Source: Adineta ricciae
Lineage: Eukaryota > Rotifera > Eurotatoria > Adinetida > Adinetidae
Reading direction: 5' to 3'
Assembly: GCA_905250025.1 (NCBI GenBank)
Contig: CAJNOJ010000184.1
Location: 124,001 to 188,000 of the forward strand
Length of the DNA: 64,000 bases
Shown one piece after another: positions 8,903 through 58,613 of the stretch (position 1 is the first letter of the stretch; each line of letters opens with the position of its first letter). A model generated the notes under the pieces. That model was not told where the DNA came from. It ran no database searches and saw only the letters and a program-made list of their open reading frames with translations. The translations under genes were made by a program, and so were the position numbers.

Positions 8903-10166
8903 AATTTCCTTCGCGACTGAAAAAAACGACGATTTTGACTATCGAATAAGTATAGAATTGCAAAGCAAAAATATCATCAATTCTTGACGTCATTTTTGGT
9001 ATTCGATAACGATTTAGTTACACAATGTAATGCGCAAATTTTTATATTCTCTCGCGTTTATTTAACTTTTCTCAAATTTAAAGCAACTCTGTCTGAGAAT
9101 TTCGTCTTTATCGACACGAAAATCCTTTTAACAAAGTATTTTACAATTTTCTAATTATATCGCAAAGAAATCTTTCGCATAATAACGCGATTTCCTAGAG
9201 AATAATATTATGACGAAAGAATATTTTTCGATCGTACCCGCTTACATCTTTATTGACCCCTGGAAAGTAGGGAAGTGAATCACATGATCCATACAGACGC
9301 CATTTGCAGTCGAACGGAGATTAATTAATTTGCCTGCAAACTACAAAAGGTGTGTTATGTGTGACTTAGTCACACATGTGCTCCTTTAGATATGCCTAAG
9401 AGTATCTGTTAAACAAAATAGGAGAAATTGAAGAGTAATCTTTTTAAGAGACAAAATGCTGTTAGTGAAAATAGACATGTGATAATGAAGTCATCCGTTA
9501 TTTCATATGAACAGGCATTGAAACCTATTCAGTATGAAGTTTAGTTCAGCAACTTCAATAAAATGAAATGATGAAGTTTCAAGACAATTGAGTTTGGTGT
9601 ATTATAATTTTACAATTGTTTTCACTTTTGTATTATTATAATTAGTTCAAAAGTTCATTTCATAAATGAGATAAACCATTTCGGCTTCTGTTTTATAGAC
9701 ATCTTGACAGAAATCATTGGTAAAGGTATTATTATTATTATCAATCTTTGTGTAATGAATGAGAATGATGTACGCCTGAACCCCTTCCTTCCTCCTCTCA
9801 ACGATATCAGCTACATTTTGAAAGATTGAAGTGTCGCGTACTCATATTGAGAAGATATTTTTAAACATTTCCTAATTATATCAAATGTTATGAAAGGATG
9901 CATGGAAACTTGAAATACAAAAGGACATCCTTTAAGCTAGATGATGTCAAATTAAAGATTTTTTTCTTCGTTCGACGACTTGAAAATAATATACTTGATC
10001 ATGCTTAATCTATCTTTCTCTCTCCAAGTATAAGTAGACGAATTTCATCTATGTGTACTGTGTCACAAGTTTACTGACTAAAGCAAGTTGATTTGTGGCT
10101 GCTTATTGAAATATTCGATAACTTTTCATCTTCTGTAATTACTGTGCATTATATTTACGTAAGAAA
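8903..10166. other. Intergenic spacer
   Basis: This is the spacer between the Ly6 gene and the first GPCR gene, which are divergent, so promoters of both are expected. It contains a perfect 21-base palindrome at 9357-9377 and a short ATT microsatellite near 9729. No exon with consistent splice sites was found. Confidence 0.4.
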
Positions 10167-31400: not shown

Positions 31401-32301
31401 TTTCAACTTAGTTAAATTCGGATAATACGCAGCACGAAGAATACGTTCCATGGACTGTGATTCAATGATAAGTGATGTGATGTTATGGTCAATTTTAGGC
31501 AAAATACTCATGCAGAATCGGTCAAGTATCAGATCAGTAACCGGCAAAATATCATCAGTCGATGTTAGTAATACGAAGTTGAGAGCAGCAGTGAAGACTT
31601 TATGTTGTACTACTGTATTCAGTCGATGAGTATCAACATCGAATAAGGAATAGAGAGCATCCATATTATCAAGTCTTTTCAGAATAATAAATAATATTTC
31701 AGTAGGTAAATCAAGAAGTTTAACATTTGACCGATTCATGTTAATGATGATTGAACGTTAACTAAATGATGTGCAGAGTTTCAAAAATAAATACGAAAGA
31801 AATTATCCGTTGACACTCTCATCTAACTGGTTGAGCATTAAAAGCTTAGAATACACAAGTCTTTCGTAAAAGATCTTAGAAATTGTTTAGTTAAGGTCGT
31901 TTTTCTCCATACGGCGCTTCCGCATGGGCTAATTTGCAAGTATTGACTTTGTCACTTACTTTCGTTTTGCTTTGATGCTCAAACTGCTGGAAACGTGTAT
32001 CATATATTTCTACAGTTTGTTTGGATCTATTGTTCTCGTGAACAAAGAAAATGGCATCTCTGTTGAAGAAAGAATAACCAATCGATATATGGGTAGATAT
32101 GTATTGTTTTTATTTTTCGTCAATCTTTGATTGACTTTATTTCTTTTAGAAAACTATTATGTTGTGTAATTAAAGTCTGTGAGAAGTGAACTAGTACCCT
32201 ATCCGACAAAAATGTAACTAGGAATGCCGGTCACTAAGGAGTGGACTACACGTGGGGACACCTATTTTATCACACAAGGACTAAGAAATATAAGATATTA
32301 A
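28444..32301. repeat. Segmental duplicate A (~3.86 kb)
   Basis: This is colinear with 33735-37591 at an offset of about 5.29 kb, with scattered single-base differences and few indels (a few percent divergence by eye). It includes the whole F-box gene, its long intron and both flanks. Similarity ends abruptly after AAGAAATATAAGATA at about 32301 and 37591. The left border is a single N. Confidence 0.85.
29317..31739 (-). CDS. F-box protein with LRR-like C-terminus, copy A
   Basis: Two exons, 31739-30954 (262 codons) and 30159-29317 (280 codons plus stop), give 542 residues. The N-terminus carries an F-box (LLDLPTEILFIILKRLDNMD, about residues 8-48), the domain that binds Skp1 in SCF ubiquitin ligases. 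The remainder has degenerate leucine-rich-repeat spacing (LQDLSITGLPSL, LTSLSLVYANI, LTKLEV), which would present substrate. The donor (ATG followed by GTAAGAA) and acceptor (TTTTAG before GAT) are in phase 0. The intron of 794 bases is more than ten times the local norm. It contains noncoding sequence also present in copy B, so it predates the duplication. The frame is intact. Large F-box/LRR families are known from rotifers; the target is unknown. Confidence 0.75.
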
Positions 32302-33437
32302 CTAAAGGGACTACCCACTGCGAGTAAGAAATGTCTATGTCGAACATCTCACGTGTTGAAAAGCTATAACAGGTAGAGAATCAGTATAATTCAAATTTCT
32401 AAGCTTCCAGTCCTTATTTTCCGCGCCGTGCATCGCATAAAATGGCAGTTTCGGCTATATTTTTTTATGCAAAAGAGTTACCGAAGCTAATTTCTGCCTC
32501 AGAAATTATGAAAAGTTCCTCTTTCTCTGATATCCATTTTCTACTGCAGCTATTTATTCATCAAACTCTTTCTCACTCTCACGTCATTTCATACCTTATA
32601 TCCTTCGAATTCACCCACCCTCAACATTTAGATTAATCTTTTGAGATCCTGTAACGACATTAGTGAGTTTCGCAGATTATCTGTAGCATTCACCGAACTA
32701 TCATAGGCGTAGAGAACTCGTGGATTGATGTCTTTGCGCGCTCAGACGGCCTTCTCTATTGATTTCGCCCACTTTTGAAATCTTGCAATCCTATTGGTCA
32801 GTTTCATAGATTGCCTGTAGCAAACGGCTGGTTCCTTTGTTCTCGGGGAAAAGTAGATGTCGACCTTCTTCTAGGTCTCAGGAAGCATTGTGGAAAGTTT
32901 CACGCCGATAACTAATACAGGGATTGAATGCATAGCGAACAAACAGACAAACTTTCTTCTTTATATATATAGAAGATGAGTGGATAATCTGTACTTCATT
33001 TATCACGATTGGTTCAACGATGAGACCTGCGAAGATAATTTACTAGGAAAGGGAACTGTATCAGAAACGCACTATGAACAGCTTATCAGTAAAAAAAACA
33101 TAGAGCTTATTTGAATTGCTTTGTCTTTTATTTTCAAAATCATAGATTTCTTGCTGTCAATCTTATCTAGTAACGACTGGTTTAATTATTTTGAGAAAAG
33201 ATTCACATTTATGCCTGAATGATTTTCTAAAAGTAACTTTCGACGTCAAACAAATATTTTTTCTCATTTATTGTCCTCTAACCATGCGAGCAAATATACT
33301 GATTCATTCACTCAAACAAAAGATCAAGAAACGCTATACAGATTGTTTGTTTGCTTTTTCTTATTTGCGTCACTCATCATTAACTTTTATACGTAAGAAG
33401 TGGAGTGTTACTCGGTACAGTTTATCGAATAATCAAT
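32302..33437. other. Spacer between duplicates, partly old transposon sequence
   Basis: This sequence is unique to this position and separates the two F-box duplicates. Apart from the retrotransposon-like tail at about 32800-32975, no gene or RNA was recognised. Open frames at 32442 and 33191 lack features. Confidence 0.35.
32800..32975 (+). mobile_element. Possible degenerate 3' tail of a non-LTR retrotransposon
   Basis: The string GAACAAACAGACAAACTTTC followed by an AT-rich TATATATATAGAAG end, preceded by GTTTCACGCCGATAACTAA, resembles the 3' ends of RTE-type elements common in animal genomes. That resemblance rests on memory of the family, not on an alignment. No reverse-transcriptase frame is present nearby, so at most a 5'-truncated relic remains. 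Confidence 0.35.
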
Positions 33438-33689
33438 ATGGGACTGCGTAAACTCCTGCTAGTACATTTTCTCGTAATTCTTGTCTCTCGCAGCAATGCT
33501 GAATTATATTCCATAGAGATTCCGAAGAACATCACATTAACAATGAAAATTATCAAACTTGAACTTGAAAGTACGAAAAATGAACTTTTAACAACAATCG
33601 ACGATCTTGAACAACGCAGCGGTATCAGCGATATTACCAATCATCTGATTGAATTCCAATCAAATGTCAAACAAATTTTGTCTGGTAAT
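33438..33689 (+). CDS. Start of a secreted protein, cut by the N at 33690
   Basis: ATG 33438 opens a frame with a clear signal peptide (about residues 1-21, MGLRKLLLVHFLVILVSR then SNA). A helical segment follows with heptad-like Leu and Ile (about residues 30-80). The frame runs into the single N at 33690, after which sequence of the F-box duplicate begins, so the 3' part is lost. No family was recognised. Confidence 0.5.
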
Positions 33690-33690
33690 N

Positions 33691-36600
33691 GACAATAATT
33701 ACCGTTGATATGAATTGTTGATAATGATTTAGACTTTTCTTCTAACGAATCTTTTCATGAACGGCATTGTTTTGTTCCATTTCCGTGAAATATTCTCAGT
33801 GAAGATTTCATTTTTGTCCGATGAAGTTACAAACTAGAAGAATAGTCAAAAGTCGTGGATGGCTGAATGTGAAAATGAAAGAAAAAGAGATTTTCAACTT
33901 GATATCGTCCAGTCAGCTATCTAACAAAAGTTTTGCTCATCGATGACGTTTCCAACAGATTGAATATGAAACAATAATCATAAAAAAAAACAGTTCCACT
34001 CAAATATTTTCAGAACTTTTCTACTGAAAACTATTTCACGTCATGACTTTAGAAAATTGAGCAGGCTGAGGAAAAAACGTTTAAATGGTTCTTCACCGAT
34101 TGAATCTAATCAATTCAAATCTAGCTATTAAAATTACACCTTCCTCAGAAACGAGCACAATCTTGCATATTTTCTCTTGTTTCGATGAATCTAACCGATT
34201 GATATGTTTGACGAACTTCCACAATCCTGATGTTATTACGAAAGAGAAACATAGGACGAGAACAGATGACCATTTTGATTTTGATTATTCTCGACACGAC
34301 GATGAGATAAGGATGTTTGTATGATGCGACATTGGAGAACGTCAGCTTACAAAAAAGATTCTATACGACTGTTTTGCAATGACAAACTTTGTCGATCATA
34401 TTTTACTTCTACGGTTAAAGATTGAGTTTGAAGTCACCATGTGAGAGATTGTTTCCATTGTAATGTTCAAATCTTTTCTAACAATAGGAAGAATCACATG
34501 TGAAAATGAGTCAGAAAGCATATCATTTTTGATGATAATCGACTTCTTCGACAGTTCATGAGCTGATTTATTGTTTGTTTTTCCTAGTTTTATTGAAACA
34601 AAAAGAAGATTACAAAAGAGGGAAATAAACATAGAAATCGGCAGAATGTACAAGTGACTTTTCAGTAATTAGTTCTTTTACTTTAGCACAATTGAGTCGT
34701 GTTGCATCTCTTGTGAAATTATTTGTTACACTGGTTAAATAATCATAATCGACTTCTAATTTTGTTAGACAAGGGAGAACTATTTTCTCTTGATTCAGAA
34801 GCTGATCGACATAGTCAATATTTGCATATACTAAGGAAAGAGAAGTAAGGTAAGGATATTCAATGGGGGGAAAGGATTGAGTTTCTTGAGAATTCAATTG
34901 ATCTGACATATTTGATTGTGACATACGGTTTATTACGCTCAATTCTTTAAGTGAAGGAAAATGGCGGGCGAGTCGGACGAAAAATTCGTGTTCGAATGGA
35001 ACTTTATCGTATACCGATAAATGAGTAACACGACCAAAGACAATAGATGGAAATGAATTGCCAAGAAATTCGAAATTTTCGAACATAAATGGTAGCGAAA
35101 AAACATGACATCTAGCGATGTGCGGTAAGTCGTACCGAATACAATCCATATGTGGATATCCAATATTAGCAAAAGTTTGTCGAATTTCATCACTAGATAA
35201 ACGAATTGAATCGTTGCGATAACTTCCAGTATGAATGTAGAAATTAAACTTTTGAAGTAACGGCATATGAATAAAGATTTCATTATTAATTTGGGTACCG
35301 TCGACAAGTTTGAATCGATTTTGAATAAAAATATTCAAAGTTAATTCTTGAAGATTTAGCATACGACGAAGAAGTGGTACAATTTGAGTATCATACTCAT
35401 CAGACATACAAAGGCATTTTAGTGAGAAACACTTCAAATTAGGTAAATTATCCTAAAAGAACAAACTAGTATTTTCAAATATAGAATTATCATGCATCGA
35501 ACTCGAACATTTGGGTGCAGCATATAGCATAACTTATTTGCAATTGTTAAATAAGAACAAATCAAAACTCAAACCTTATAATTGTGAGTTTCTTTACATC
35601 TTCTAATACTCAGAAAATACTTTGAAAACCTTCTGAATACTCAGTTGCAACTTAACTTGAGGAATAAGACTGAACTCGAATCCGAACTTGAACTATAGTT
35701 CGGCTTGGATGCATGTCTAGGCGGCACAATTGCAATGAAAAAAAAGTGAAAGAAAAGCTGACCTTCTCGTTTCTACGCTTTACGCTGATGATTGAAAGAA
35801 GTGCTACTGTAAAATGATGTTGGTGAAGAAAGCGCAAACATTTCAAATCACATTCATAACTATCGGAAAACAATGAAAATGGTTGGAAAGACATGAGTGA
35901 GAAAGTGTTTCTAATTATAATGTTACAAGCTTAGTTTGTCGTTCAGTATTCAGATAAGAAACTATCTGATCAAAAATATCTCATAAATTACAAATTCTAC
36001 ATTTCATAAAATCATACTCGACTAAAGACAGGCAATCTCAGGTGGATAAATACATTGAATACGCATTAGAACTTCATAATTTGTTTATTTTGAATGAAAC
36101 ACATTCATTCATTTCAGTTGCTGAAAACAACTTATCCGAAGTACAAACTAAGAGATACTCATCAATCGTCTTCGCTTCATTTTCTCATGTAATATTATTT
36201 ACCGCATTATACTTTGACAGTCAATTAAAAGCATAGATATTCTTACCATATTATAAGTTGATGAATGTAAACGTGTACTATCAAGAATAACAATCAATGT
36301 GGTTAACCCTGCGAGACGGCCATCAAGTAAAGCGAGACATTCTCCGAAACCATTCAAAAACACACATAATTTTGAAAGAGTTGATGAAGAGCAAGTGGTT
36401 AAAGGTGAATCAAAAAGTGTTAAAAGTGAAGGTAAGCCAGTAATAGATAAATCTTGTAGACTTTTAAAGAATGTCAAAACATGTCCGTGGACACCATTTC
36501 GATACAATCGTTCTGCAAGAATATCAATACCATGCTTGTATACAAGACTAAGATCAATAATCTGTTCTTGAAAAATTCGTCGAAAAGGCGATGTATCTAT

Positions 36601-37591
36601 ATAGTTATCTTGTGAATTATATACGTTTAATTTACGTTTAGCTTTTTTACCTGTAAAATAAGACGAAGCAATTTTATCAAGGAAATTGTAGATTTTCAAC
36701 TTAGTTAAATTCGGATAATCAGCAGCACGAAGAATACGTTCCATGGACTGTGATTCAAGAATAAGTGATGTGATGTTATGGTCAATTTTAGGCAAAATAC
36801 TCATGTAGAATCGGTCAAGTATCAGATCAGTAACCGGTAAAATATCATCAGTCGATGTTAGTAATACGAAGTTGAGAGCAGTAGTGAAGGCTTTATGTTG
36901 TACTACTGTATTGAGTCGATGAGTATCAACATCGAATAAAGAATAGAGAGCATCCATATTATCAAGTCTTTGCAGAATAATAAATAATATTTCAGTAGGT
37001 AAATCAAGAAGTTTAATATTTGACCGATTCATGTTAATGATGGTGGAACGTTAACTAAATGATGTGCAGAGTTTCAAAAATAAATATGAAAAAAATTATC
37101 GGTTGACACTGTCATCTAATTGATTGAGCATTAAAAGCTTAGAATACACAAGTCTTTCGTAAAAGATCTTAGAAATTGTTTAGTTAAGGTCGTTTTTCTC
37201 CATACGGCGCTTCCGCATGGGCTAATTTGCGAGTATTGACTTTGTCACTTACTTTCGTCTTGTTTTGATGCTCAAACTGCTGGAAACGTGTATCATATAT
37301 TTCTACAGTTTGTTTGGATCCATTGTTCTCGTGAACAAAGAAAATGGCATCTCTGTTGAAGAAAGAATAATCAATCGATATATGAGTAGATATGTATTGT
37401 TTTTATTTTTCGTCAATCTTTGATTGACTTTATTTCTTTTAGAAAACTATTATGTTGTGTAATTAAAGTCTGTGAGAAGTGAACTAGTACGCTATCCGAC
37501 AAAAATTTAACTAGAAATGCCGGTCACTAATGAATGGACTACACGCGGGGACATCTATTTTATCACGCAAAGACTAAGAAATATAAGATAG
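33691..37591. repeat. Segmental duplicate B (~3.9 kb)
   Basis: This is the second full copy of the F-box segment, with about 45 extra bases at its left end that also match 27660 onward. It is bordered on the left by the single N at 33690. Both full copies keep intact coding frames. Confidence 0.85.
34610..37032 (-). CDS. F-box protein with LRR-like C-terminus, copy B
   Basis: Exons 37032-36247 and 35452-34610 give 542 residues, colinear with copy A. Only scattered substitutions were seen, for example KRLDNMD to QRLDNMD in the F-box, and a small cluster around residues 365-395 where FPYMAVCH reads LPHIARCH. Splice sites, the 794-base intron and both ends are conserved. Both copies being intact suggests a recent duplication, or two allelic or homoeologous copies joined in assembly. 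Confidence 0.75.
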
Positions 37592-38356: not shown

Positions 38357-41552
<3,196 letters not shown>

Positions 41553-42023: not shown

Positions 42024-43428
42024 TTAAGTTGGAGAGGCAGGTTTCCACATTAAACTCGAAGTATTATGTGGAAAAACAAACCACGGAGGAAAATAATGTT
42101 CTCTAGGACAATTTTGAAAAGGAACTGGATAATTCAGATCATGAACAACATCTCCACCAGCTAAATATGCAGCCCACCAACCATATGTTCCTGCTGTCAC
42201 AATTGTATGTTCACATAAAGCTAAGGCAGCCATATCTTCACCAGAGAAAAAACCGGACGGTGTTATAAAAACATCTGTGTATTGTCCCAGATGTGTCTGC
42301 ACGTACTTCTTATCGTCACTAGCGATTAAAAACCGGCAATTAACATATTTTCGTCGATAATAATTCATTGACCAAACGAGATATTCCACACTTGTGTCAA
42401 TTTTAAAAAATGTTAAGAAATCACCTCGACGAATATGAATTCCAATCCAAGTTACAGGCGTGAACGATGGTCCAGGATTCGCTAGTATGGATTTTAAATA
42501 GCGATGTGGTACCGTATCTTTCGTATAATTACGCAGATCCAATGAAATATTCCAAACAGCTAGAGATAGACAAAAAAGAAAGAAAAGAAAATGATTTCAA
42601 AGAACCAACAGCGTGACATTTACAAGTTTCAGTCTCATGAACAAGAAAAAACTAATTTAGTAAATTTTGAACGCTCGAAAAGATGAATTTTTTTACTATG
42701 ACTCAATATACTTCAAATGGTATTTTTTTTCTCGAACCTTTCATCAATTGTTCCACCATTGGTACATTTCTAACGATTGCTCCTTGATTAAACTGAAATA
42801 AGAAATTGATTTCTTCACGATACTTATCAAAATATCCATATGCTTGATAAAATCCATTTAATTCATATCGTTGGAATGTTTTATTGAATGGTACACGGAG
42901 TAAATCAGGATAAAACACACATGAACTATATCGACTAAAGTAATCTGTTCGATTAACAACCAGTCTATCATCTTTTGTCAATTGCACCTTAGTTTTCTCG
43001 ATCTCAATACGAAAGACTGATCGAAGATCGATTAAAATCCATGGTGCAACATAGAGTTGACATTGATGAAGACGAGCGAGACCATATGCACTTGCAAATA
43101 AAAACATTCGATTACCCAAAGCGCCATCCGCTGAACGAATAAACAGAAAACATGTTGGTGGTCCTTGAGCTTTGTCATGCATAGTCAAATTAGGATTCAT
43201 ATTTTCTAAAACCGATTGTCTTAATGAAGAAAAATAAATTTTCGTATCTAATACATTTGGAAATAATGACTTAGTAGGATAAAACCAGATCACATAGAGA
43301 ATAACTAATACAATCAATGAGATAAGAAACACGGGAACTTTCTTATTCATTAATCGTGATTGAGACCATCTTGAATAATCAAGAAGAACGTACCGATAAG
43401 ATTCAATGGAATTTATATTATCTGCCAT
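42024..43428 (-). CDS. GT11 alpha-1,2-fucosyltransferase-like protein
   Basis: Two exons (43428-42738 and 42559-42024) give 408 residues. A short cytoplasmic tail of about 30 residues, a single membrane anchor (about 31-50, VPVFLISLIVLVILYVIWFY) and a lumenal catalytic domain form the usual type II Golgi layout. The family motif GIHIRRGDF (about residues 270-278) binds GDP-fucose in alpha-1,2-fucosyltransferases (FUT1/FUT2 group). GNRMFLFASAYGLA earlier matches the family's first motif, and TAGTYGWWAAYLAGG the C-terminal one. It should add fucose to terminal galactose on glycans. Potential N-glycosylation sites occur (NLT, NRT, NKT, NTS). Length is slightly above the vertebrate enzymes (about 345-365). 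Confidence 0.88.
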
Positions 43429-44245
43429 AATAATAACTACAAGAGATTTCTTTCGTCATTCATTTGATCGGCTTGTTTTTTCATGTCTTATTTCAAAGTA
43501 TTATACATACAGCGACTTTTTTGTTACAAGAATGCATATATTGTAACCTACAAATTTATTTACCTGAGAAGAAACAGAACACCATGATACGCAGAACAAA
43601 TTTTACCTCCCTATGTGAAAACGACTTTAAAAAAAAGAGAAAAAGAAACATGGTGGCGCTATACAGCCAGCAGAATCAGAATAAAAACGGTTTTTTTTAT
43701 TCTTTCATAACAGTCGTGCTCTCCAATTAAATAAATTCCAGTTCTGTCAACAAAGAAATCTCGTATAGATTCGTTGTGAATATTTTGTGCGAGAAATTCA
43801 TCGAACAATGTCAATTGATTTTTCAATTGAGAGAACGTTATTTAAGTAAATTATAGATTTGAATATGAACAACAAACGTAATGTTTTTTTACTAAGAAAT
43901 TCTTGATACATTGATTTCTCTAATGATGACCTTTTCTTCTTTTTTCAATATTGATCATTCATACGAAGAAAATATCGAAATGATGTTGATTATCGATCGG
44001 ATAGAATATTCTTTGTCCCTCATCAGTCAAGCTTGACTACAGTGAAAAAAGCCACTACCATGAACGATTAATGAACAAGATACATATTATGAAGGCAAGA
44101 AGAAAATATATTTCAGTATCTTTTTTGATGATCTCCTTGAACATACATATATGAGTATATATCAAGGCTTTTTAGCCACATATATAGAGAATATTGAACT
44201 GAACCATAACCTTTCATTAATTTCATATACATATCTATTGAAATA
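43429..44245. other. Intergenic, no gene seen
   Basis: This is a divergent spacer that should carry promoters of the fucosyltransferase and the proline-rich gene. An 88-codon frame at 43464-43730 has no recognisable features. Confidence 0.35.
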
Positions 44246-45562
44246 ATGTCCGACCGTAGTGAACCATCCTCATCGTCAGATTATGAAGAGGAACCATCAT
44301 CATATACTGAAAATCTTCCACCACTACCAGCAGCAACAACCACGTCAACAACAACAACAACAACAACAACTACGACTACTACTAGTAGTACTGCTGCAGC
44401 GACTGGAACTGGAACAACAACCGTAACAGACAAGCAAGAATCACTTAAAAATTATGTAACTAATCTATTAGCTCGACATGTTCTACGTGATGATGAACAA
44501 TCTGATCTAACTGAAACTGAAATAAGAATTAATCCACGAGACAGTCCATACCATGATTATCATAATGTCTCAGCTTTTCGCCAGTATCATTCGAATGCCG
44601 AAGGAACTGTAAGAACAGGTGCTCAACGACGACAAGATACAACAAGTGATGAAGAAGGAGGATTAAGAGATGGAACATCAACAGAACAAGTTAGATTTTC
44701 TTTCATTGTCTCTTTAGTCGAAAACAACATTTCTTTTTTTTCATTCTTATGTAGTCCGATGAAACCGGTACAGAACTAAATTTAGATCCCGATCCGATTA
44801 TTGAAGAACGTGAAAGTGCTGAGCAACGATATAAACAAAAAGTTTATTTACGTCAATTACAACCACCGACTCCCCAACCAATTGAAATTCAAGTTCAAGA
44901 AGTTTTACTTCAAGGACAAACACCAAAACCACCAATACATGTTCGAGTTGCCAAACCTCAACCAAGAACTCCATCACCAATTGTGATTAAAAGTGCACCA
45001 CCACCACCTCCTCTAGTAGAATCTGATCAACCAATTGTCTATAATAAATATGTACCTCCTCCTAAACAGCCACCACAGCAGGTAGTAATCTTGTATCAGT
45101 TAGACAATATTTCGAATAAAAATTTCTAGATTATCATTCATCGACATCCAGATTTGCCGCCTAAACCACGTAAAATTTTCTCGTTTCAAATGATGAAATT
45201 TTCATTTAGTCGTTTTCACTTAAGGTCCGATCGTTGTTGAACAATGGTTGCCATATAAACCAGCTCCTAAACGTATCATAAAACACTCATTACCACCGGA
45301 AGCTCGTCAAACTCCACCTGCTCCACACAATATAGTTGTCTCCTATGCTAAACCACGTGCTCTAATTGAAGTCGAATTAGTTCGTTTGCCCATCGTTAAA
45401 ATTGACCCTTATACATATCAACAAATGACAACGGCTGGTCATGAACAATTAACACAACATCCATCATTTCAACATGAACAACATCTATTCTTTGGCAATC
45501 GAGACAGAAGCCGAATAGCACAAGGATCAGAATCATCTACTGATATTAATTGGCGAATTTAA
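44246..45562 (+). CDS. Low-complexity, proline/valine-rich protein with alveolin-like motifs
   Basis: Four exons (44246-44689, 44755-45081, 45130-45169, 45225-45562) give 382 residues. The N-terminus is acidic and Ser-rich, followed by a Thr run coded by an ACA/ACT microsatellite (about 44337-44393). The middle and C-terminus alternate hydrophobic, charged and Pro residues: PQPIEIQVQEV, PPIHVRVAKPQP, SPIVIKSAPPPP, PIVVEQWLPYKPAPKR. This V/I-polar-V/I plus P pattern recalls alveolin or epiplasmin repeats of cortical cytoskeleton proteins and some nematode proteins. The link is a visual resemblance only. There is no signal peptide or membrane segment. It could be a cytoskeletal or integumental scaffold, but its function is unknown. 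Confidence 0.6.
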
Positions 45563-47078
45563 ATCAAATTCATATTTGTTTTACTGTTAATAATTTGTAT
45601 TGAATTTAACCATGTTTGAATTGATTAAAATTATCTTTATTGAACATGTAGATAATCCAATCATCACGAAGGAGAACGTGCTATAAATATCTCGATGTAA
45701 TAATTATTAAATACTATTTTTTATATGCAAGATAAGTCAATATATCTCTTGTCAAATAAACGATAGATAATTTCAGTACAGAGAAAAAAAGAAAGAAACA
45801 TTTTATTTTGCGTTCTCTTCTTTTCTCATCTAATCAAAATGCTTACAAAAAAATATTTTGGCGCTTTCAACCATTGACTTTCTCGTATTTATCATCACAT
45901 CAAATATTCGCTTTCGTCTATGTGTTAATCGTTAACCACAATCCTCTTGTTTTAATACATTGGAAAAGTACAAAGGTAAAATAACTTTTGTTTAATTTGA
46001 TTTGTTCACATGAATGACAATGAGAAATTTAGACAAGACCTTGAAAATTCTACTTGTCAAGGTAATCTAAGAACGAAAAAGAAAAAGATGAGTAAATAAG
46101 CAACAAAAAATACAAAGATTCATAAACCTTGTTGGATTCAAATCGTTTCGATTTGTATCTAAAAGTGATTATTTGATAGGTTTTGTTAATGAGATCTGTA
46201 GAAATGGATTCTGAATCATTAAAATTGGATATTTGTGAAGATAAATTATCATGACTGAGATTAAAAATCATTTGCCTTGTTAAAATCTGTTCTGTATTGA
46301 ATTCATTATCAATCAGAAATATGAACATTCACTACAAACAAAAGTAATAATGAATAGTATAGTTAATTCTGTTATTTTGTTGATTTGCACAAAGGACAAC
46401 AAAGATCATAACATAAAAACAAGTTGTTTGACAAGAACGAAAATATAAGATTTAGATATATGAATTTGAAAATTGAATTTCAATGTTATTTAAAACAATG
46501 TACTTCGTATTATCTTTCGTAAATTCATATTAGACAAAAGCTAAATAAATTGTCCATGATACTACGTTTTATACTTTATAGTCGTAATAGTACGCTTATC
46601 ATAACAGTAACAGGACTGTTTTATCACATCGGTTACTTTCTCCTTGACAAAACCGCAGATGATTATCTTTGACTTATTTTTACTTTCTCAAACATATTTT
46701 ACAAAATATTTCCACGTATCTAACATTAACTAGCTTTCATTAATAATCATCATAATACATTCTTTTCTTTTCGATATCATTCGTACATTTCATATAATAT
46801 ACAAAGCGCTATATGTAAGTTTGCCTTCTGTTCATTTTATGTCTCTTAAGAGAAGAACAGATAAGGATATATATATATAATCCAATAGTATGATGTAACA
46901 TACTGTTCATTCACCGTTCTTTTTCTTCCAATGAGTACACGACAGAGAAGGTCAATGTATATAATATGTAGAAAATATTCTTCTATTGATGTATACGTAA
47001 AGGATTTTATGTTCGTTTCGATCGATGAAGAAAATGTCTAGTTTTTTGACTATGATGTATTTGATTTAGTTTGTAATA
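45563..47078. other. Intergenic, no gene seen
   Basis: This is the 1.5-kb AT-rich spacer between the proline-rich gene and the Argonaute, both on the plus strand. A 92-codon minus frame at 46050-46328 has no features. TA microsatellite-like sequence occurs around 46870-46882. The Argonaute promoter should be at the right end. Confidence 0.35.
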
Positions 47079-50000
47079 ATGTCATCGCATCGAGATCGGG
47101 ATTATCCGGATGGTATGATGAGAAATTCGGTATTTTTCTCTCTTGAAATGATGTATCCTTTTTTTTTGTTCTACACAGATGATGATCGTCGGTCATCAAA
47201 ACGCCGTATGTAATTTTTCTTTTCGTTTACTTTGAAAATCTCTTGTAATATTAATTGTTTACAATTTACATTAGATCGATCAGGTCGTAGTCATGAAAGA
47301 TTATCATCTCATCCTCAACGTCGATCGTATTCATCAGCAGATGTAGAAGAAAAGCCATCGAGTAGTCAGTTAAGTCGAACTGTTGAATCTGGTTCTACTT
47401 CCACCGTTCCGAAGACGACAACGGAAACAGAAAGTGGTTCAAAAGCACGTTCACGATCATTTGTTCGTCCGATAATTCGTTCTGCTGTTCCAGAATCACA
47501 ATTGATTTCACTTGCACGACGACCCGCTCAATCTGGACGAGGTAAATTCATTGTTTTCAAAATTTTCTTTCATTTTGCATTGATAATCACACTTACAGTT
47601 GGTCAACGAGTTGAACTTTATACCAATCATTTTAAAATCGAATTTGAGAACAACTCTCAATCATCAAATATTTATCAATTCGATGTCGATGTCGAAATTC
47701 TTATGCGTGATGGTTCATGGCGTTCATGTAAGCGAGACGAACGTTTTCAAGTTATAAAAACAATTATTGAACGGGAAAAATTTCCATTGGTATGGTATGA
47801 TCAAGGAAGAAGTTTATATGCCAAAGAAAATTTAACTGTGAACTTTAATAAAGAATACGAATGCGAGATAAAACATAAGAAAACTGATCGAACGAATCGC
47901 TTTCGATTTCTATTGATTAATTTAGTGAAGACATATGATTTAAAGATAATTTTTGATTTTATTCAACGAAAAATTCCACTAAGACCACATGATCCGGTGA
48001 GAATCTTAGAAATTTTATTAAAACAAACACAACGCCTTGATATGGTGAATATTAAAAATCGATCATATCCAAAACATCAAAAATTAGATGATCTTGGTAT
48101 AGGATTTGTTCGAGAAGATCAAACTTCATATCTCTTGAATTGTTGTTTAGGTGATGGACGTGGTTTAGCATCGGGATTTTATCAAGCAATTGTGTTAGGT
48201 GAACGTGGTCCAACATTAAATGTTAATAATACATTCTGTTGTTTTTATCAAAATTATAATTTAGTAGAATTTATTACATGTTATCTTGGTAGCGATATTC
48301 GCCGGTCGGGTGCGGTTTTTCAACGATGAGTTATTTGTAGGAAAACAGTTTGTTTTTTGTTCTTTCAGGTATATCATCAAAAGATCAACCATTGTTAGTA
48401 CGGAAAATTCTTAAATCGATATGGTTTGTCACAACTCATACTAATCAAATTCGTAAATATCGTTTAAAATCATTTGGTTCTCCAGCAAATCAACATACAT
48501 TTATAAAGGATCAAGGTTCAAAGATAAGTGTTGCTGATTATTTTTATGAGAAATGGAAAATTCGTTTGCGACATCCACATTTACCTGTTGTGGAACTGTT
48601 TAATCCAGTTGATAAGAATAAATCACATTTTTTACCGATGGAATTGGTTATTGTTGATGACTGGCAGAGAAGTTTAAAACCTCTTACAATAGAACAACGT
48701 GCAACGGTAACGAGGAAAACTGTTGTCAAGCCAGGCGAACGATATGGATTGATTCGACGTATTGTAGACGAACGTCAATATGATAAAGATTCATATTTAC
48801 AGAGTTTTGGTATGAAGATTCAAACGAATGATATGTTAGCAATTACCGGTCGACTTTTAACTCCACCTGAAATCAAATATAAATCACCACATGATGAAAG
48901 TCGAGATGTAATCGAAAGAGTCAGTATTGGTAAATGGTATTTAAATAATTATTTCAATAAAACGCGTGAAATACGTTCGTGGGCATTGGTTCTTGTCAGT
49001 CAAAGAGCACCCGACGAACGGCAAGTGGGTTTAGCAAAAGATTTTGCAAATAAACTTCCACAGGTTTTGATGAAACTTTTTCAAATGAAAATTATTCGAA
49101 ATACTACTCTTCTTTCTGTTATTAAGGCTATGTCAAAGTATGGAATTCGACTCAATTCATCAGCTATTGAAAAATCTGATGCAGCAAGTCCAGATATTAT
49201 CCTGGCACGAATGAATGAATTGAAAACACTTGGATGTGAAGTGATCATTTATATTCTGAATCAAGTTGGTGATGATATTTATCATGCAATTAAATTCTTT
49301 GGAAATGTTAAACTTGGTAAGATAAAAGTCTGTTAATCATTTTAAAGAATTGTTTTATTTTCGTAGGAATGGTAACACAATGTACACGATTTGATAAACT
49401 ACAAGCAAATAGTGAACCACGCAAGATGGATATGTACATTCAGGTATAGAAATTGACTTTAGTAGAATAATACTTTAGATTTTGACTTTCCATTCTGATA
49501 TTTTCAATAGAATTTATCTCAAAAATTCAATGCAAAATTAGGTGGCATTAACCAATTTGTTTCACTTATGCGAGCATTGACATCTCCATCAACTCGTTCA
49601 GATGTTTTCATGTTTTTTGGTATTGATTGTACTCATGTAATGTGCTCACGTGAACGACCATCAATTGCAGCAATCATTGGTTCCAAAGATTCAACAAGTT
49701 GACTATTGTGATAATGTATTCTCTCTTTGGAAACGAAATTCTATTATTGTAGGTACACAATATAGTGGCCGTGTTGTTCAACAATATTCACCAAAAGGAA
49801 AAATATCAGTTGAAATTATCAAAGATCTTCATATTTACGTTGGAGATTTAATACGAAAATTCTCGGAACATAATTCACGTTTACCAAATAAACTCGTCTT
49901 TTATCGAGCTGGAGTAGATGATGGAGCATTCCAGAAAGTCTTGGACAATGAAGTACAAGCTATTAAACAAGCATGTCAAGGTAATTCTTTCGTATCTTAT

Positions 50001-50741
50001 TTAATAGGAAAACTTCATTTTATTGTCTTACATAGAATTCTACGGTCATAATCAATTGCCAAAAATTTGCTTTACTGTGGTCAAGAAAAATCACAATACT
50101 CGTTTCTTTATCTATGACAAACAATCAAATCAAACGAATAATGTTCAACCTGGTATAACAATCCCTTCTTCTTTTTCTTAAATCGACACCTTTTTAAACA
50201 TCTTATATTATATTTATTTCTAGGTACAGTTATTGATACAGATATTGTATCACCCAATGGATTTGATTTTTATCTCAATTCTCATGCAGCCATTCAGGGT
50301 ACATCAAAACCAGCACTCTATCATGTCTTATATGATGATATCGGTTTTACATCGGACGAAATTCAACAATTAACGTAAGCTGGATATTTCAATTGAAAGA
50401 TTTTTCCTATAGATATACATTCAGATATTATCTTTGTCATACTGATGTTCGATGCACGAAAGCTATATCGATTCCATCACCTGTGCATTATGCATCAATC
50501 TGTGTGTCTCGTGGACTTAATCTTGACTATGAAGGACAAATGGCAAATGAACAACGAAGTATAGCAACGTAAGTCGTAGAATGATTTATATAAAAGAAAA
50601 AAGGAATGAAAGAATTCGAATTTTAGTTCTGATATGGAAGAAGGACTTGTTGATGAAAATATTGTCGTTACATTGGATGATGTTCAAACATTAAAAATTG
50701 ATTTCAATTCAATGATTGAAAATACAATGTGGTTCGCATGA
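47079..50741 (+). CDS. Argonaute (AGO subfamily) with degenerate slicer site
   Basis: Twelve exons (47079-47112, 47179-47205, 47275-47541, 47599-48309, 48369-49316, 49367-49443, 49511-49697, 49753-49980, 50036-50152, 50224-50374, 50425-50568, 50627-50741) give 1001 residues. Order: an Arg/Ser-rich N-terminus (about 1-115), the N domain, PAZ ([10 protein letters not shown] ... HFLPMELV, about 395-460), then MID and PIWI. PIWI is recognised from [43 protein letters not shown] and the C-terminal TMWFA. Argonautes bind small RNAs to silence RNA targets. Of the slicer tetrad, the first Asp (D727) and the Glu finger (E771, in VEIIKDL) are present. The second Asp is Ala (A803 in YRAGVDDG, normally RDG) and the final His is Ser (S940 in HYASI, normally YAH). 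RNA cleavage is therefore unlikely, leaving guide binding. Confidence 0.92.
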
Positions 50742-51453
50742 ATATTTTTCTTGTTAAAATTTTTTGTACAGAATCCGATTATATTTGATCAAATTGATCA
50801 AGCATCTTGATTATATTTTCGTGTGCCGTTTTTCTGTGGTTTTCAGATGTTTTATTTTATAGTCTATTATGAAACGAAACATGTTGAAGAATATATAAAT
50901 TGCATATAATCAATGAGTTACAAAATCATTTGATCAAGGACAAAGAAAAAACAATAATGACTTGATTTCGTGTTCTTATGTAGTTTACCATACCAAAAGT
51001 GTAAAGGAAGAGAAAGGAAATATATTCCTTTTAGTTTAGTTGGACTTATATTCACATATATCATCAAAAGATCCAGATATATAACTGAAAGAATTTTTTA
51101 AATATCATTTATATTAGGGGAAATTCGGTAAGTTAATCAATGAATTGACGTCCTTGTAGAATCTTCTACGAAATTGAAATCAATATGAGAGATAGACCTA
51201 TCCTTATACTGACTCATTGTTGATTTACTTGCTGGAGGAGAAAGTATTTCGTAGTAAAATATATTTATCGTCTCAGAGGAAGAAAGAGCATTGGTTGGAT
51301 TTATGTATGAGAACGAACACAAATGTGTGTAGTGCAACGTGGTCGGACAAAACGGGGTCATTGAGAATACTTTTCATATTTGAGAGGAAAGTTATTATTT
51401 AAAGACAGATAATAACCACAAATTAAACTAAGAAAGAAACAACAACAACGCAT
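50742..51453. other. Convergent 3' flanks, no gene seen
   Basis: The Argonaute 3' UTR and the phosphatase 3' UTR face each other here. Short overlapping frames at 51137-51402 on both strands lack features. Confidence 0.35.
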
Positions 51454-52746
51454 CTACGAGGAAGGTTTTGTTTGTGTTATTATAAGTTCTAATAAATGTT
51501 GAACATCTTTAATGCAATATTTTGGTAATAGATCTCTGTCGTTCGCTGTTTTCTCCGCTGATTGTTTAACCATATCTAATTTCTTTTCACTAGTTGCTCC
51601 ACTAAAAACAAGTAATGTTGTTAAACCTTGACGATTACCAAATAGTATATCTGTTTCTAATCTAAATGTAATCAAATCTCGTCAAATCATACAAGATGAA
51701 GATAATGATCTTACCGATCACCAATCATAATCGTTCGATTTGGTTTAACATCAGGAAAAGCTAAACGAATCGAATCAAACATAGGTGCTCGCGGTTTACC
51801 GAGAATTGTCGGTGAACGACCTGATGCTGCTACAATTGAAGCTAATATCGTTCCTTCACCTCGAATTAACAAGAGAAATGTTATACAATTTGATATTTTT
51901 GTCTATATTGTAAATTACCTGGTAGAATAGCTACATCATTTTGTGGAGTAGTAACATCATCATTTGTAGCTATGAAGAGAACATCAGGTCGACTCAGATA
52001 AGTTGCCGCTTTGATAATTTTTAAATAATTAACATGTATATCAAATGCTGAGATGACACAATTGATCTAAATTATGACAAGAAAAAGAATATTCTTTACA
52101 AAATTTAGCTATTTTTTTTTCTTACCTGATCATCAAATTTAATTGTATTAGTTTCAATCCAATCCGTTTCAGGAGATACAGGATCAGGCTAAACGAATAA
52201 ATTCAATAATATAAACAAAAATATAAATGGAAATAAATTGAACTTACACCAATACCATCTGAAATATGAAAACCTTCACGTGATAATTCTTCTACCATAG
52301 ATTGCATACCAATACAATAACAATGACCTTTATAATTAATTGATTTTAAATATTTCGCTGTAATCCATGCAGTCGAAATGACTTGTTCCTTCGAACAAAA
52401 CCACAATCGTATTGAATATGTAAGAAAAAGATAATCATACTGGTTTAGCTGGATATCCAATTTCATTGAGCCATTGTGAAAATCCTCGTTGAGTTTTCAA
52501 CGAATTATTAGTTACAAAAAGTACACGTTTACCCTATAAGAATATGTGTTACAAGATAAAATCATCATGATCAAACACTTCGACTCATACTAGTTGTGTC
52601 AAAAGGTTAAGTAATTCAATAGCACCCGGAAGAACGATTGGTGCACACCAAAGAACACCATCACAGTCAAATAGAAACGTATCATGATCATTTAAAACAA
52701 ATTCAATATGAATTTCGTTTAACCGAGTGCAAACTGCAGTCGACAT
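51454..52746 (-). CDS. HAD-superfamily phosphatase (PGP/PDXP type)
   Basis: Seven exons (52746-52591, 52533-52441, 52388-52248, 52188-52126, 52066-51919, 51859-51715, 51661-51454) give 317 residues, the usual length of phosphoglycolate and pyridoxal-phosphate phosphatases. HAD motif I is FDCDGVLW with nucleophile D27 and acid D29. Motif II is LFVTNNS, motif III likely the Lys in LGKPRAP, and motif IV is MIGDRLETDI. A C2 cap lies between motifs II and III. The family removes phosphate from small metabolites such as 2-phosphoglycolate (metabolite repair) or vitamin B6 phosphate. Sequence alone does not decide which. It is cytosolic, with no targeting signal. Confidence 0.9.
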
Positions 52747-54083: not shown

Positions 54084-55055
54084 TGATATTAAAGTTCTAG
54101 TAGAATGTAGAAGAAAAATTCACATGCAATGATCATTGTTGATTGGTTTCAAAGAACGAAACGAATCAGATTACTATACAGTTGATGTCGCTTTTGTTCG
54201 TTTCTTAGACTAACCATCGAGTTTCCACTTCTTTCTCTCTGTGAGAGGAAATATTGAATGGAAACACGTACAAGTTCAGCAGGTAAGATTCTTTTACTTT
54301 CGATTCTGATTTCACACGTTAAGTTTCTATAATAACGTAGATCGATTAAAAAAAAGAAATGCATATATGTGTGGTAGGACAAGTTGTTCTTAATTTTCTT
54401 TAATGATTGATCTAGATAGTGACGTGTTTTAATTTGCATAGAATACGGTCAATTATCTTAGTAAATATTCCCGTTCAGTAAATTGAGTTTCTGTAATCCG
54501 TTATAAGAAGGTATGTTTTCTTTCGACATAGATATTTGACTTACAGAACGGTATGTTAAAAAGCAAAGTGATATACAATCTAATCTAGTTCATGGTGATC
54601 AAATGTATTGAGTACATTCGTTACACTAAGAATAACTGGAAGAATTCGAGGTACCAAATTGTCATTTATAATTAACTAGTTAAGTGCCTTGTGTTAGTAC
54701 TCTTTATAACCTAGGAAACGTATTTTACGTCTTCTGTTTATTATGAGATAGACTTTTCTCAAAACTTCTTGAATAATCTATTTGAATCAATGACAGTTTT
54801 TTTTCGGATGTGAATAACACCACATCCAATTATTTTACATGAAAACTATTGTCTATGTCATATGTCAGCATTTTCATTCAATGTGATCGTGTACTTCAGA
54901 CACGACATCACGAATAGAAATTGCATTAATTATCATTGTATATATGTGTGCATGCGTGAAATGATGTAGCAAATAGTCACATTATGTGTATAAAGATCGA
55001 TGTTTTCCTTCTTTTCTCATAACATCTCTAGATATTCAATTGAAAAACTTCGGTA
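54084..55055. other. Intergenic, no gene seen
   Basis: This is a divergent spacer between DNLZ and GPCR paralogue 2. A 96-codon minus frame at 54149-54439 shows no domain or signal. Promoters of both genes are expected here. Confidence 0.35.
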
Positions 55056-56024
55056 ATGTCGGTAGCTGATGTTGTTACTCAAATTAATCGTTATTTCGCT
55101 TCGTGCATTTTCATTTTCGGTTGTGTGGGAAATATTTTGAATATTCTCGTTTTATCACAACGAACACTTCGGTCAAATTCATGTGCATCGTTATTTCTTG
55201 GTTCATCCATCGCTGGTCTATGCTCACTTATTGCTGGACTCACACCTCGAATGTTAAGTGGTATTGCTGTTGATCTTTCCGAAACAAATCAAATATTATG
55301 TAAATTTCGTGGTTTTACATTATTCACATCTCGTGCGATTGCATTCTGGTTGATTATGTTAGCCACTATTGACCGATGGCTTTTATCTTGTCCTGATGTA
55401 CATCGTCGACATCTTAGCACTATAAAGAACTCTAATCGAAGTACAGCCGTTGTTGTGTTTCTTTCAATTATACTTCACTCCGAATGTTTCTATTGTTACA
55501 ATTCAAATCTTGTTAATACTCCAGGCAAATGTTTTAGCAATGGAATCGTTTGTCGTTTGATAAATGATATGTTATTTGCTGCTTGTACTATTCTCATACC
55601 TCTATGTGTAATGACAACTTTTGGTTTTTTGACACTTGGAAATATTCGTCGAGCTCGAAATCAGATTCATTCGGGTCAAATTTCAGTTGCGAGTCAAAAT
55701 AAAGGCACTGCTGCTATACGCTCGAAAAGATCGAAGAAAACGGATCATCGCCTTTTAATAATGCTTTTAGTGCAAGTAGTGCTGCTTGCTATGTTAACAA
55801 TTCCGTCATCAATTGAAAAATTTTATTCAACGTTAACAGCAGATGTTGTTAAATCCACATCCCGTGCAGCAACGGAGAATTTAATCTACAATTCTGCTCT
55901 TCTGTTAACATATCTGGCAAATGGAATACCATTTTATGTATATACTCTCAGTGGTGGAAGTGTTTTTCGAAAAGCATTTTTCGATTTGATACGTACAATT
56001 ACTCGGAAGGTGATTGGACGTTAA
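55056..56024 (+). CDS. Rhodopsin-like GPCR, paralogue 2
   Basis: This is an intronless receptor of 322 residues with seven hydrophobic segments. It has the same landmarks as paralogue 1: GNILNILVLSQRTLR in segment 1, TIDRWLLSC after segment 3, a basic KRSKKTDHRLL before segment 6, and IPFYVYTLSGGSVFRK at the end of segment 7. As in paralogue 1, DRY is DRW and NPxxY is absent. It is closest to paralogue 3 (shared LSGGSVFRKA). The ligand is unknown, probably a peptide. A 250-base-arm hairpin lies 170 bases downstream. Confidence 0.8.
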   Translation: MSVADVVTQINRYFASCIFIFGCVGNILNILVLSQRTLRSNSCASLFLGSSIAGLCSLIAGLTPRMLSGIAVDLSETNQILCKFRGFTLFTSRAIAFWLIMLATIDRWLLSCPDVHRRHLSTIKNSNRSTAVVVFLSIILHSECFYCYNSNLVNTPGKCFSNGIVCRLINDMLFAACTILIPLCVMTTFGFLTLGNIRRARNQIHSGQISVASQNKGTAAIRSKRSKKTDHRLLIMLLVQVVLLAMLTIPSSIEKFYSTLTADVVKSTSRAATENLIYNSALLLTYLANGIPFYVYTLSGGSVFRKAFFDLIRTITRKVIGR

Positions 56025-56758: not shown

Positions 56759-57614
56759 CGTTGTTAGACATGTTTTTAGTAATTCACATTATACGACTTG
56801 TAAAAACATGTCAATTCAAATTTGTGTTTATTATATGTTTACAACGAGTTGTCTTCATTTTCTTGATTGAAAGATATGAAAATGTAAAAATAAATCCAAA
56901 AGATCTTCACTGATGAGTAAATCCTGTATATTATCAGCGACGAAGAGCCGTAGAATCAATGGTAAATGATGAAAATCTCTGAAATGGAAATATTTAGTGA
57001 TGATATATATTGTCCTTTAACATTGTTCAACTATTCGAAACGCAGTCCAGTCGAGAATGATTCTCAATAAATAATGACACACATAAGGAAGGATTAAATC
57101 CTGCAATGAATTCCGAGAGAACTTTATTTCTAAATAAATCAATGTTTATAAATCAGATAGAGTTTTGTTTTCTTCATAAGAGTCATACATTTTACGATTG
57201 ATTTTATTTAACAGACAACAATCATATCAGCTATACATTTGCATTATTTGAACATTTATTTTCGTTAAAATAACTTATATTCTGCGATGATTGTTTTTAA
57301 TTGTGTCTTATTTAAATTAACATAGGTGAACCCGTACGAAGTGCTCATAATATAATATACTGATATGTTCAGAATCAGAAGAAACCATACATATACGGTT
57401 GAAAATAGATCTTGTTTAATGTTATATCGATAGAAGCCTACCGAAAATAGTACGATAATTAGTTTTTTTTGGATGAGCAGAAAAAAGTAGATCACATTCA
57501 GTTGACTTTTGTTTTTAGTATATAAATATTGTTGCTTGATTTCAATGAGGATTTCTTATAATTTTCAAATCTTTTCTAGGTATCAATTAGTGGTCAATAT
57601 CCAAGAGAGAGAAA
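56759..57614. other. Intergenic, no gene seen
   Basis: This is the spacer between the large hairpin and GPCR paralogue 3. It is AT-rich. A 76-codon minus frame at 57265-57495 has hydrophobic stretches but no family resemblance. Confidence 0.35.
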
Positions 57615-58613
57615 ATGCATTCGCCATCGGCTGAGATCATAATCGTTAATTATATGAAAAGTATTCTTGCTCAAATCAATTTCTATTTTGGTTTATTTAT
57701 TTTTGTGTTTGGAATTTTTGGAAATATGTTGAACATTCTCGTTTTATCTCGAAGATCTCTTCGTTACAATCCATGTATTATTATTTTTATTGCATCATCC
57801 ACTACTGGTATCATTGCTATTCTCTCTGGTCTAACTTCACGTGTTATATCCGGAATTACTGTTGATCTATCTGCAACTGTCAATTGGATTTGCAAATTTC
57901 GTGGTTTTATTCTATTCACTTCTCGTGCAGCAACATTTTGGTTAATTATGTTAGCCACAATCGATCGATGGCTCTTGTCATCGACCGATGCTAATCGTAG
58001 ACACAAGAGTTCGAAGAAAAACTCCTTACGAGGTATATTGGCTATAACATTCATATCGATTCTGCTTCATGCTCAATTATTCTATTGTTATGAAGCTAAC
58101 CTGACCGATACACCATTGAAATGTTTCTCAAGAAATGTCGCGTGTCGTTTAGTAAACGATTTAACGTTTGCAATTATTGCTATTCTTTGTCCGTTAGTAT
58201 TGATATTAGTTTTTGGTTGGTTGACTATATTAAATACACACAAAACTCTTTTACGTGTTGGACCTGCAACTTTAACGGTTAATGCAAGAAATAGTCAAGT
58301 CATTCGAAATAAAAAACGATCAAGAAAAACCGATCAACATTTGTTAACAATGCTTTTCGTTCAGGTTATTTTTCTTGCCATATTCACACTTCCACTTGCT
58401 ATTCAAAAACTTTATGCGACGCTGACAACAAATGTACCAAAGTCATTGTTACAAACAACAATTGAAGATTTTATCTATCAAATTGCTTTAATTTGTACGT
58501 ATTTTGCAACGGCAATGCCCTTCTATGTCAATACACTCAGTGGTGGAAGTGTTTTTCGAAAGGCTATGATGAGCCTGAAAGAATCTGTTATTCAACAAAT
58601 CTTATGTCGTTGA
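57615..58613 (+). CDS. Rhodopsin-like GPCR, paralogue 3
   Basis: This is an intronless receptor of 332 residues. It shares with paralogue 2 the segments LFTSRAATFWLIMLATIDRW, KKRSRKTDQHLLTMLFVQV and NTLSGGSVFRKA. Seven hydrophobic segments span about residues 20-305, and DRW again replaces DRY. The two lie 1.6 kb apart in the same orientation, which indicates tandem duplication. Paralogue 1 is more distant in both position and sequence. Confidence 0.8.
   Translation: MHSPSAEIIIVNYMKSILAQINFYFGLFIFVFGIFGNMLNILVLSRRSLRYNPCIIIFIASSTTGIIAILSGLTSRVISGITVDLSATVNWICKFRGFILFTSRAATFWLIMLATIDRWLLSSTDANRRHKSSKKNSLRGILAITFISILLHAQLFYCYEANLTDTPLKCFSRNVACRLVNDLTFAIIAILCPLVLILVFGWLTILNTHKTLLRVGPATLTVNARNSQVIRNKKRSRKTDQHLLTMLFVQVIFLAIFTLPLAIQKLYATLTTNVPKSLLQTTIEDFIYQIALICTYFATAMPFYVNTLSGGSVFRKAMMSLKESVIQQILCR

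Follow-up and report, generated by a model that had tools for sequence, protein, structure and literature searches.

Introduction

Argonautes that do not slice are already known as a kind. One of them is human AGO4, whose catalytic tetrad we take to be D-E-G-R and thus altered at the two positions that also differ in the gene described here, an Argonaute of the bdelloid rotifer Adineta ricciae. It lies in a 64,000-nucleotide stretch of assembly GCA_905250025.1 (contig CAJNOJ010000184.1, positions 124,001 to 188,000, forward strand), hereafter called the window. The tetrad of human AGO1 is DEDR, and the Glu finger is kept in both inactive AGO1 and inactive AGO4 (PMC9262622). Like these two proteins, the window gene has a full Argonaute (Ago) architecture, keeps the first Asp and the Glu finger, and has lost the last tetrad position; unlike them, vertebrate microRNA (miRNA) Argonautes close to AGO2, it has divergent rotifer Argonautes as its kin, and its changes are to Ala and to Ser or Thr. 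The same amino acid change at the same residue has been engineered in AGO2 D669A and AtAGO10 D795A, which give structures with uncut target (PMC11893014, PMC10772731). Those are laboratory point mutants, whereas the window gene carries an old change of natural origin and has lost the His as well.

In nematodes, a lineage-specific expansion of Argonautes is found in an animal with RNA-dependent RNA polymerases (RdRPs; PMC3782831), and the tetrad is described as missing from Ascaris WAGO-1, WAGO-2 and NRDE-3, whose small RNAs are directed against repeats (PMC8837657). Bdelloids, thought to be long asexual, are paleotetraploid and unusually rich in Argonaute and RdRP genes, including expanded and divergent Argonautes (BDAGO I and II) and a mean of 38.9 RdRPs, compared with 0.6 across a set of selected eukaryotes; a canonical ping-pong cycle is reported to be missing from Adineta vaga (Nowell 2021, PMC7943196). 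The words ‘catalytic’ and ‘slicer’ do not occur in the main text of that paper, and no report of a bdelloid Argonaute tetrad was found in the literature searched, which mostly left out subscription papers and so gives no proof of absence. An ‘argonaute-2-like’ gene of A. vaga is listed among radiation-response genes (PMC12220480) and is not matched to any copy here.

What is new and well supported is an old, conserved bdelloid clade of non-slicing Argonautes with a D-to-A plus H-to-S/T signature, together with a genome-wide tabulation of tetrads. One bdelloid Argonaute clade thereby gains a testable mechanism, since it differs from its slicing-type relatives by a lost cutting site and has then been conserved; this raises the question of whether RNA silencing in bdelloids is shared out between cutting and non-cutting Argonautes, as it is in nematodes.

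Results

The window Argonaute has lost two residues of its catalytic tetrad

In what follows, C184 denotes the window gene, C103, C170 and similar labels the copies on other contigs, and L numbers the stretches fetched from the genome. Tetrad positions were assigned by phmmer alignment to human AGO2, with residue numbers taken from a spliced model of 962 residues (Table 1). Where human AGO2 has DEDH, the window protein has DEAS. An initial annotation of this DNA had proposed that the RDG Asp is replaced by Ala (YRAGVDDG) and the final His by Ser, with the first Asp, the Glu finger and a TMxFA ending retained. The alignment places the Ala on AGO2 D669, the Ser on H807 and the two retained residues on D597 and E637, and the protein ends in ENTMWFA, so each of these proposals stands. 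The interval given for them, 49753-50568, holds the Glu, the Ala and the Ser; the first Asp sits in the preceding exon. A slicing-type tetrad (DEDH or DEDD) is found neither here nor in the C170 copy, which is DEAT, and the three best matches in the PDB are human AGO2 chains that read YRAGV, that is, D669A.

The two Mg2+ ions of wild-type AGO2 have different ligands, D669 for the second and D597 with H807 for the other, and the D669A protein is catalytically dead (PMC11893014). Since this one replacement kills AGO2 and removes a metal holder, the Ala alone should leave the window Argonaute unable to slice, and the Ser at the last position implies that a ligand of the other metal is gone too. 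Pfam domains ArgoN, ArgoL1, PAZ, ArgoL2 and Piwi all scored above cut-off in a first model of 998 residues (5/5, ArgoL1 only just, at 22.4 against 22.0), and the predicted architecture of N, L1, PAZ, L2 and MID-PIWI is that of an Argonaute of the eukaryotic (Ago) type. Very probably, then, the gene encodes a functional Argonaute that cannot slice, a guide-binding member of a divergent rotifer clade.

Residues that anchor the guide are kept

The proposal that this protein binds guides and does not cleave draws support from the combination of lost tetrad residues and kept guide-anchoring residues in both MID and PAZ. AGO2 Y529, K533, Q545, K566 and K570, which we take to form the MID 5'-phosphate pocket, are all identical in the window protein (5/5). 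The same is true of H271, R277, Y279, F294 and Y311, presumably the PAZ residues that hold the guide 3' end, and of K278; R315 and H316 differ. The Thr-His pair that follows the first Asp is kept; in plant AGO10 this pair makes contact with the target at t10 (PMC10772731). Two of the six residues of the AGO2 basic loop 709-714 differ, with Asn in place of R710 and H712. The first 106 or so residues of the protein are basic and Ser/Arg-rich, a stretch that C103 conserves and that can be recognised in C170; L028 and L029 start with RG-rich sequence instead, as judged by eye from the reading frames.

The window Argonaute most likely silences by binding RNA, not by cutting it. It would load a small RNA with a 5' phosphate, the guide would pair with its targets, and silencing would proceed through recruitment of other factors or through occupancy, without cleavage. 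A protein that holds guides and has lost its cutting residues, in a genome with slicing-type relatives, could also serve as a guide sink or dominant-negative regulator that binds small RNAs and keeps them from the slicing paralogues. We consider such a role improbable, although nothing specific speaks against it; the N-terminal extension, being conserved, may point to separate partners or a separate place in the cell.

Neighbouring residues and other splice forms do not restore the site

The site would still be active if the lost residues were replaced by the DD of VDDG or by the His of VHYAS, three residues before the Ser. Both candidates lie only a few residues from the lost positions, and some Argonautes with atypical triads are reported to be active (PMC8191739). 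However, the DEDH paralogues L013, L025, L028, L029 and L035 carry YRDGVDDG and PVHYAH; because they have the DD and the upstream His together with an intact Asp and His, both are family background, and rescue by either was rejected. Moreover, AGO2 has S672-E673 at the position of the DD, and D669A alone is dead (PMC11893014). A still-active site is for these reasons very unlikely. An alternative exon encoding RDG or YAH was likewise rejected, as no motif of either type occurs in the six frames of 46501-51500. Replacement by a neighbouring residue such as those of VDDG, and a splice form restoring RDG or YAH, were the two outcomes named in the initial annotation as able to overturn it, and neither has materialised.

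Loss of both residues in intact genes is confined to three copies

By a hand count of exon matches that includes alleles and partial copies, about 33 Piwi-domain clusters are present in the genome to which the window belongs (130 Mb in 1033 contigs). We fetched 33 stretches, some overlapping, around all of these clusters and aligned each with a custom splice-aware profile aligner, whose models of distant genes are rough outside PIWI. At the RDG position, 27 of the 33 stretches have D and four have A (L023, L024, L036 and L041, with L024 showing the L023 gene again); the fragment L030 gives an unreliable S, and the truncated L037 no residue. The last position is H in 17 stretches, D in nine, S or T in four (the rows with A) and N in one (L033, which is degenerate with a stop), and two rows, L037 and L038, have no residue there. 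Ala is therefore present in three intact loci, C184, C103 and C170, as is S or T, and the Asp is kept at every other locus readable at this position, one fragment excepted. Whether sister copies share the A and the S had been put forward as a check: the Ala recurs in both open copies, and the Ser in C103 (DEAS), with Thr in its place in C170 (DEAT).

Neighbouring copies are mixed in some rows: L011 combines the two copies on C10, L024 the two on C170, and L016 two pieces from C14, and L015 shows mostly the L014 gene. When the copies are read separately, DEDH appears in each of the two on C10 and DEDN, without a stop, in the lower C95 copy; the upper C14 piece covers just the D and the E, and of the tetrad the second C170 piece has just the final T. 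The three dead genes are untouched by this mixing. In this genome, C184, C103 and C170 are the only genes seen to have lost two tetrad residues without other damage.

Several other copies depart from DEDH or are incomplete. L009, L010, L014, L016, L020, L021 and L022 form two separate divergent Ago groups with DEDD, a tetrad also found in bacterial TtAgo, with D in place of H at the last position. Another weakened slicer may be the lower of the C95 copies, in L015 (G000:C95:175160-177039), which is DEDN without a stop. L033 (C100) and L040 (C99) look like degenerate Argonaute copies, with stops in their models and, in L033, the tetrad A-N-D-N. Just downstream of the C170 Argonaute lies a second, partial PIWI 3' half (G000:C170:118129-118793, in L024) with the same Thr at its last position. 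L037 (G000:C345:67500-75000) is a truncated relative of the C170 copy that ends soon after the first catalytic Asp and has an in-frame stop in its model; it is possibly the lost fourth member of a quartet, and searches with five neighbour genes found no match on C345.

The loss most simply predates the split of the homoeologues

At the level of sequence, the C103 copy is the allele of the window gene: it shares 92.9% nucleotide identity over a 4-kb stretch and 96.3% protein identity, and five tested neighbour genes are common to both contigs. The C170 copy is, by the same kind of comparison, its homoeologue, with 77.6% protein identity and three upstream neighbours in the same order and on the same strands. 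These three serve as synteny markers (Table 1). The last exon of the proline-rich neighbour (45224-45562) has its best matches adjoining the Argonaute on C103 (96%) and C170 (70%), and the best homologues of the next gene are on the same contigs (95% and 54%; no Pfam match). The gene with an adenylate-sensor domain has matches on C103 and C170 only.

A maximum-likelihood (ML) tree was built from 28 of the 33 fetched stretches and a human AGO2 fragment, leaving out L024 (which overlaps L023), L030, L033, L037 and L038 as overlapping, fragmentary or degenerate. In it the three dead copies form a clade with 100/100 support, inside a group of 15 divergent Ago rows (87/90, not starred). Human AGO2 joins the AGO1/2-like rows L017-L019 (99/97), and L026, L027, L032, L034 and L039, which we took for the Piwi type, form a separate 100/100 group that does not include the window gene. 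The dead copies thus occupy a branch apart from both, in line with the lineage-specific silencing branch first suggested. By path, the rows nearest to the dead clade are L029 and L028, both DEDH, with the joining fork open; its nearest slicing-type relatives are divergent rotifer Argonautes at about 55% identity. One scan each of viral contigs and genome contigs confirmed no relatives outside the genome, as expected for an animal gene.

The pairing of alleles and homoeologues in this genome, and its expanded Argonautes and RdRPs, fit a bdelloid. Bdelloid homoeologues date from a genome duplication common to all bdelloids (Nowell 2021, PMC7943196). Because both homoeologues have the Ala, the RDG Asp was most simply lost once, before they split, and the protein has been conserved since.

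The dead clade is under purifying selection

We estimated ratios of nonsynonymous to synonymous substitution (dN/dS) by the Nei-Gojobori method with 500 codon bootstraps. The values were 0.099 (0.067-0.138) for C184/C103 at dS 0.17, 0.124 (0.099-0.154) for C184/C170 at dS 1.18, and 0.123 for C103/C170; across MID-PIWI the same pairs gave 0.098, 0.102 and 0.095. For comparison, the slicing-type pair L028/L029 gave 0.071 (0.049-0.095), with 0.035 in MID-PIWI, and the AGO1/2-like pairs L018/L019 and L018/L017 gave 0.047 and 0.012. The dead clade is well constrained, yet less so than its slicing-type kin.

To see which positions had changed, we chose ten slicing-type rows (seven of the divergent DEDH group and three AGO1/2-like, without DEDD or Piwi rows). 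Seven of the 73 PIWI columns invariant in these rows are altered in all three dead rows, namely a V-to-C change beside the first Asp, the D-to-A and H-to-S/T changes, and four others. Two of the four tetrad residues are changed against five of the other 69 columns, an excess that is suggestive only (Fisher p 0.044).

In a decaying gene that is no longer needed, the catalytic residues would simply drift. In keeping with decay, the fourth related copy on C345 is truncated, a partial second copy adjoins the C170 gene, and dN/dS is somewhat above that of the slicing kin. Against it stand three open copies with dN/dS about 0.1 at dS of both 0.17 and 1.18, a conserved N-terminus, the retention in C103 of all examined C184 splice sites, and the small share of invariant PIWI columns altered, two of them catalytic. 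A broken C103 allele, with two stops and one frameshift, was considered and rejected, because the stops and the deletion lie within introns (A and B in Table 1). Decay is, we judge, highly improbable. Given that two more copies are open and that dN/dS is close to 0.1, the window gene can be regarded as an intact and selected, predictedly slicer-dead Argonaute and not a pseudogene, as had originally been proposed.

A possible link to secondary small RNAs

By hand count the genome has about 32 RdRP clusters (alleles and partial copies included; among 75 of 105 candidates scored). Because there are so many, a WAGO-like model is attractive by analogy, in which the expanded RdRPs would supply secondary small RNAs as guides, as for nematode WAGOs. 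We put this forward tentatively, as less likely than not; the alternative is that the guides are miRNA-like or small interfering RNA-like, as for human AGO1 and AGO4. The window genome resembles nematodes in combining an Argonaute expansion with RdRPs, and its dead clade resembles Ascaris WAGO-1, WAGO-2 and NRDE-3 in tetrad loss. It differs in that RdRPs are far more numerous, only one clade combines intact genes with the loss of two tetrad residues, and most copies are DEDH or DEDD; the likeness to WAGOs is an analogy, and the tree covered rows of this genome and human AGO2. As an expanded, divergent Argonaute in a paleotetraploid rotifer with an RdRP expansion, the window gene is like BDAGO I/II and probably belongs to one of the two.

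A broader and more speculative scenario, which we think rather unlikely as a whole, is that bdelloids evolved a non-slicing effector Argonaute independently of nematodes, fed by the expanded RdRPs and kept since before the duplication, hence present in all living bdelloids. It would amount to a convergent, WAGO-like amplification system against transposons and foreign genes in an ancient asexual genome.

Several points weigh against these interpretations of the gene. A missing DDH triad need not mean inactivity, as Drosophila Piwi, with DDK, illustrates (PMC8191739). The 5'-phosphate pocket is of the canonical kind, which does not favour WAGO-like guides with a triphosphate. The dN/dS of the dead homoeologues (0.124) exceeds that of L028/L029 (0.071) and far exceeds that of L018/L017 (0.012). 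Two downstream neighbours tested had no match on C170, so that collinearity extends upstream only, and the shared Ala may have come about through gene conversion between homoeologues.

Gene structure

Splice sites are predictions from sequence and homology. Twelve exons had initially been proposed; we find 14, since two short in-frame introns, A and B, had been read through. Both are identified as introns from the relatives: the C103 copy has two stops within intron A and a 1-nt deletion within intron B, and in C170 intron A is absent and intron B is a clear, spliced GT-AG intron. Besides the exon count, two borders of the earlier model needed correction, the exon 5 donor and the exon 13 acceptor, the latter removing a 4-residue insert relative to AGO2; the catalytic residues are unaffected. 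An assembly or gene-model artefact, which the two missed introns and the misplaced acceptor of the first model might suggest, has a negligible chance of explaining the lost residues, given that the Ala and Ser codons lie within exons, no closer than 70 bases to an exon border (for the Ala, 155 bases into exon 10), and that C103, at its level of nucleotide divergence, and C170 agree at the Asp position.

Table 1 Predicted features of the Argonaute gene and its upstream neighbours in the window.
Feature	Position	Strand	Remarks
Argonaute gene, 14 predicted exons, 962 aa, tetrad D-E-A-S	47079..50741	+	spliced model without internal stop, C-terminus ENTMWFA
Exon 1, start codon	47079..47112	+	N-terminus found upstream of C103 and C170 copies too
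Exon 2	47179..47205	+	
Exon 3, basic Ser/Arg-rich N-terminal extension	47275..47541	+	
Exon 4, N domain	47599..48096	+	
Intron A, read through in earlier model	48097..48150	+	GT-AG, 54 nt, open in window's frame
Exon 5	48151..48309	+	donor shifted from 48288 to 48309 by homology with C170 and L028
Exon 6, PAZ and L2	48369..49063	+	
Intron B, read through in earlier model	49064..49126	+	GT-AG, 63 nt, open in window's frame
Exon 7, MID	49127..49316	+	
Exon 8, MID	49367..49443	+	
Exon 9, MID/PIWI	49511..49697	+	
Tetrad residue 1, Asp688 kept (AGO2 D597)	49625..49627	+	GAT, FGIDCTH, exon 9
Exon 10, PIWI, Glu finger and RAG	49753..49980	+	
Tetrad residue 2, Glu732 kept (AGO2 E637)	49812..49814	+	GAA, VEIIKDL
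Tetrad residue 3, Ala764, Asp lost (AGO2 D669)	49908..49910	+	GCT, YRAGVDDG
Exon 11, PIWI	50036..50152	+	
Exon 12, PIWI	50224..50374	+	
Exon 13, PIWI, last tetrad position	50425..50568	+	acceptor 12 nt later than in earlier model
Tetrad residue 4, Ser901, His lost (AGO2 H807)	50495..50497	+	TCA, PVHYASI
Exon 14, C-terminus and stop	50627..50741	+	
Proline-rich neighbour gene, synteny marker	44210..45562	+	extent by eye from open reading frames
Neighbour gene, synteny marker, glycosyltransferase-like by eye	42703..43455	-	
Neighbour gene, adenylate-sensor domain (SNF1 type, PF16579), synteny marker	40610..41008	+	

Other features of the window

A duplication spans 28691-37050, with a spacing of 5293 bases and a reported identity of 97% over 300 bases. 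Each duplicate holds a pair of similar minus-strand open reading frames (29317-30159 and 30906-31757; 34610-35452 and 36199-37050) that look F-box/leucine-rich repeat-like by eye; the one tested, 30906-31757, had no Pfam match. A single intron-less reading frame of 886 residues on the minus strand (4893-7553) has two stretches matching the rhamnogalacturonase/pectate-lyase-like family PF12708 and is a candidate for a horizontally acquired gene. Finally, three similar long reading frames lie on the plus strand at 10122-11162, 55044-56024 and 57591-58613; the second matches 7tm_1 (PF00001), and the others are alike by eye.

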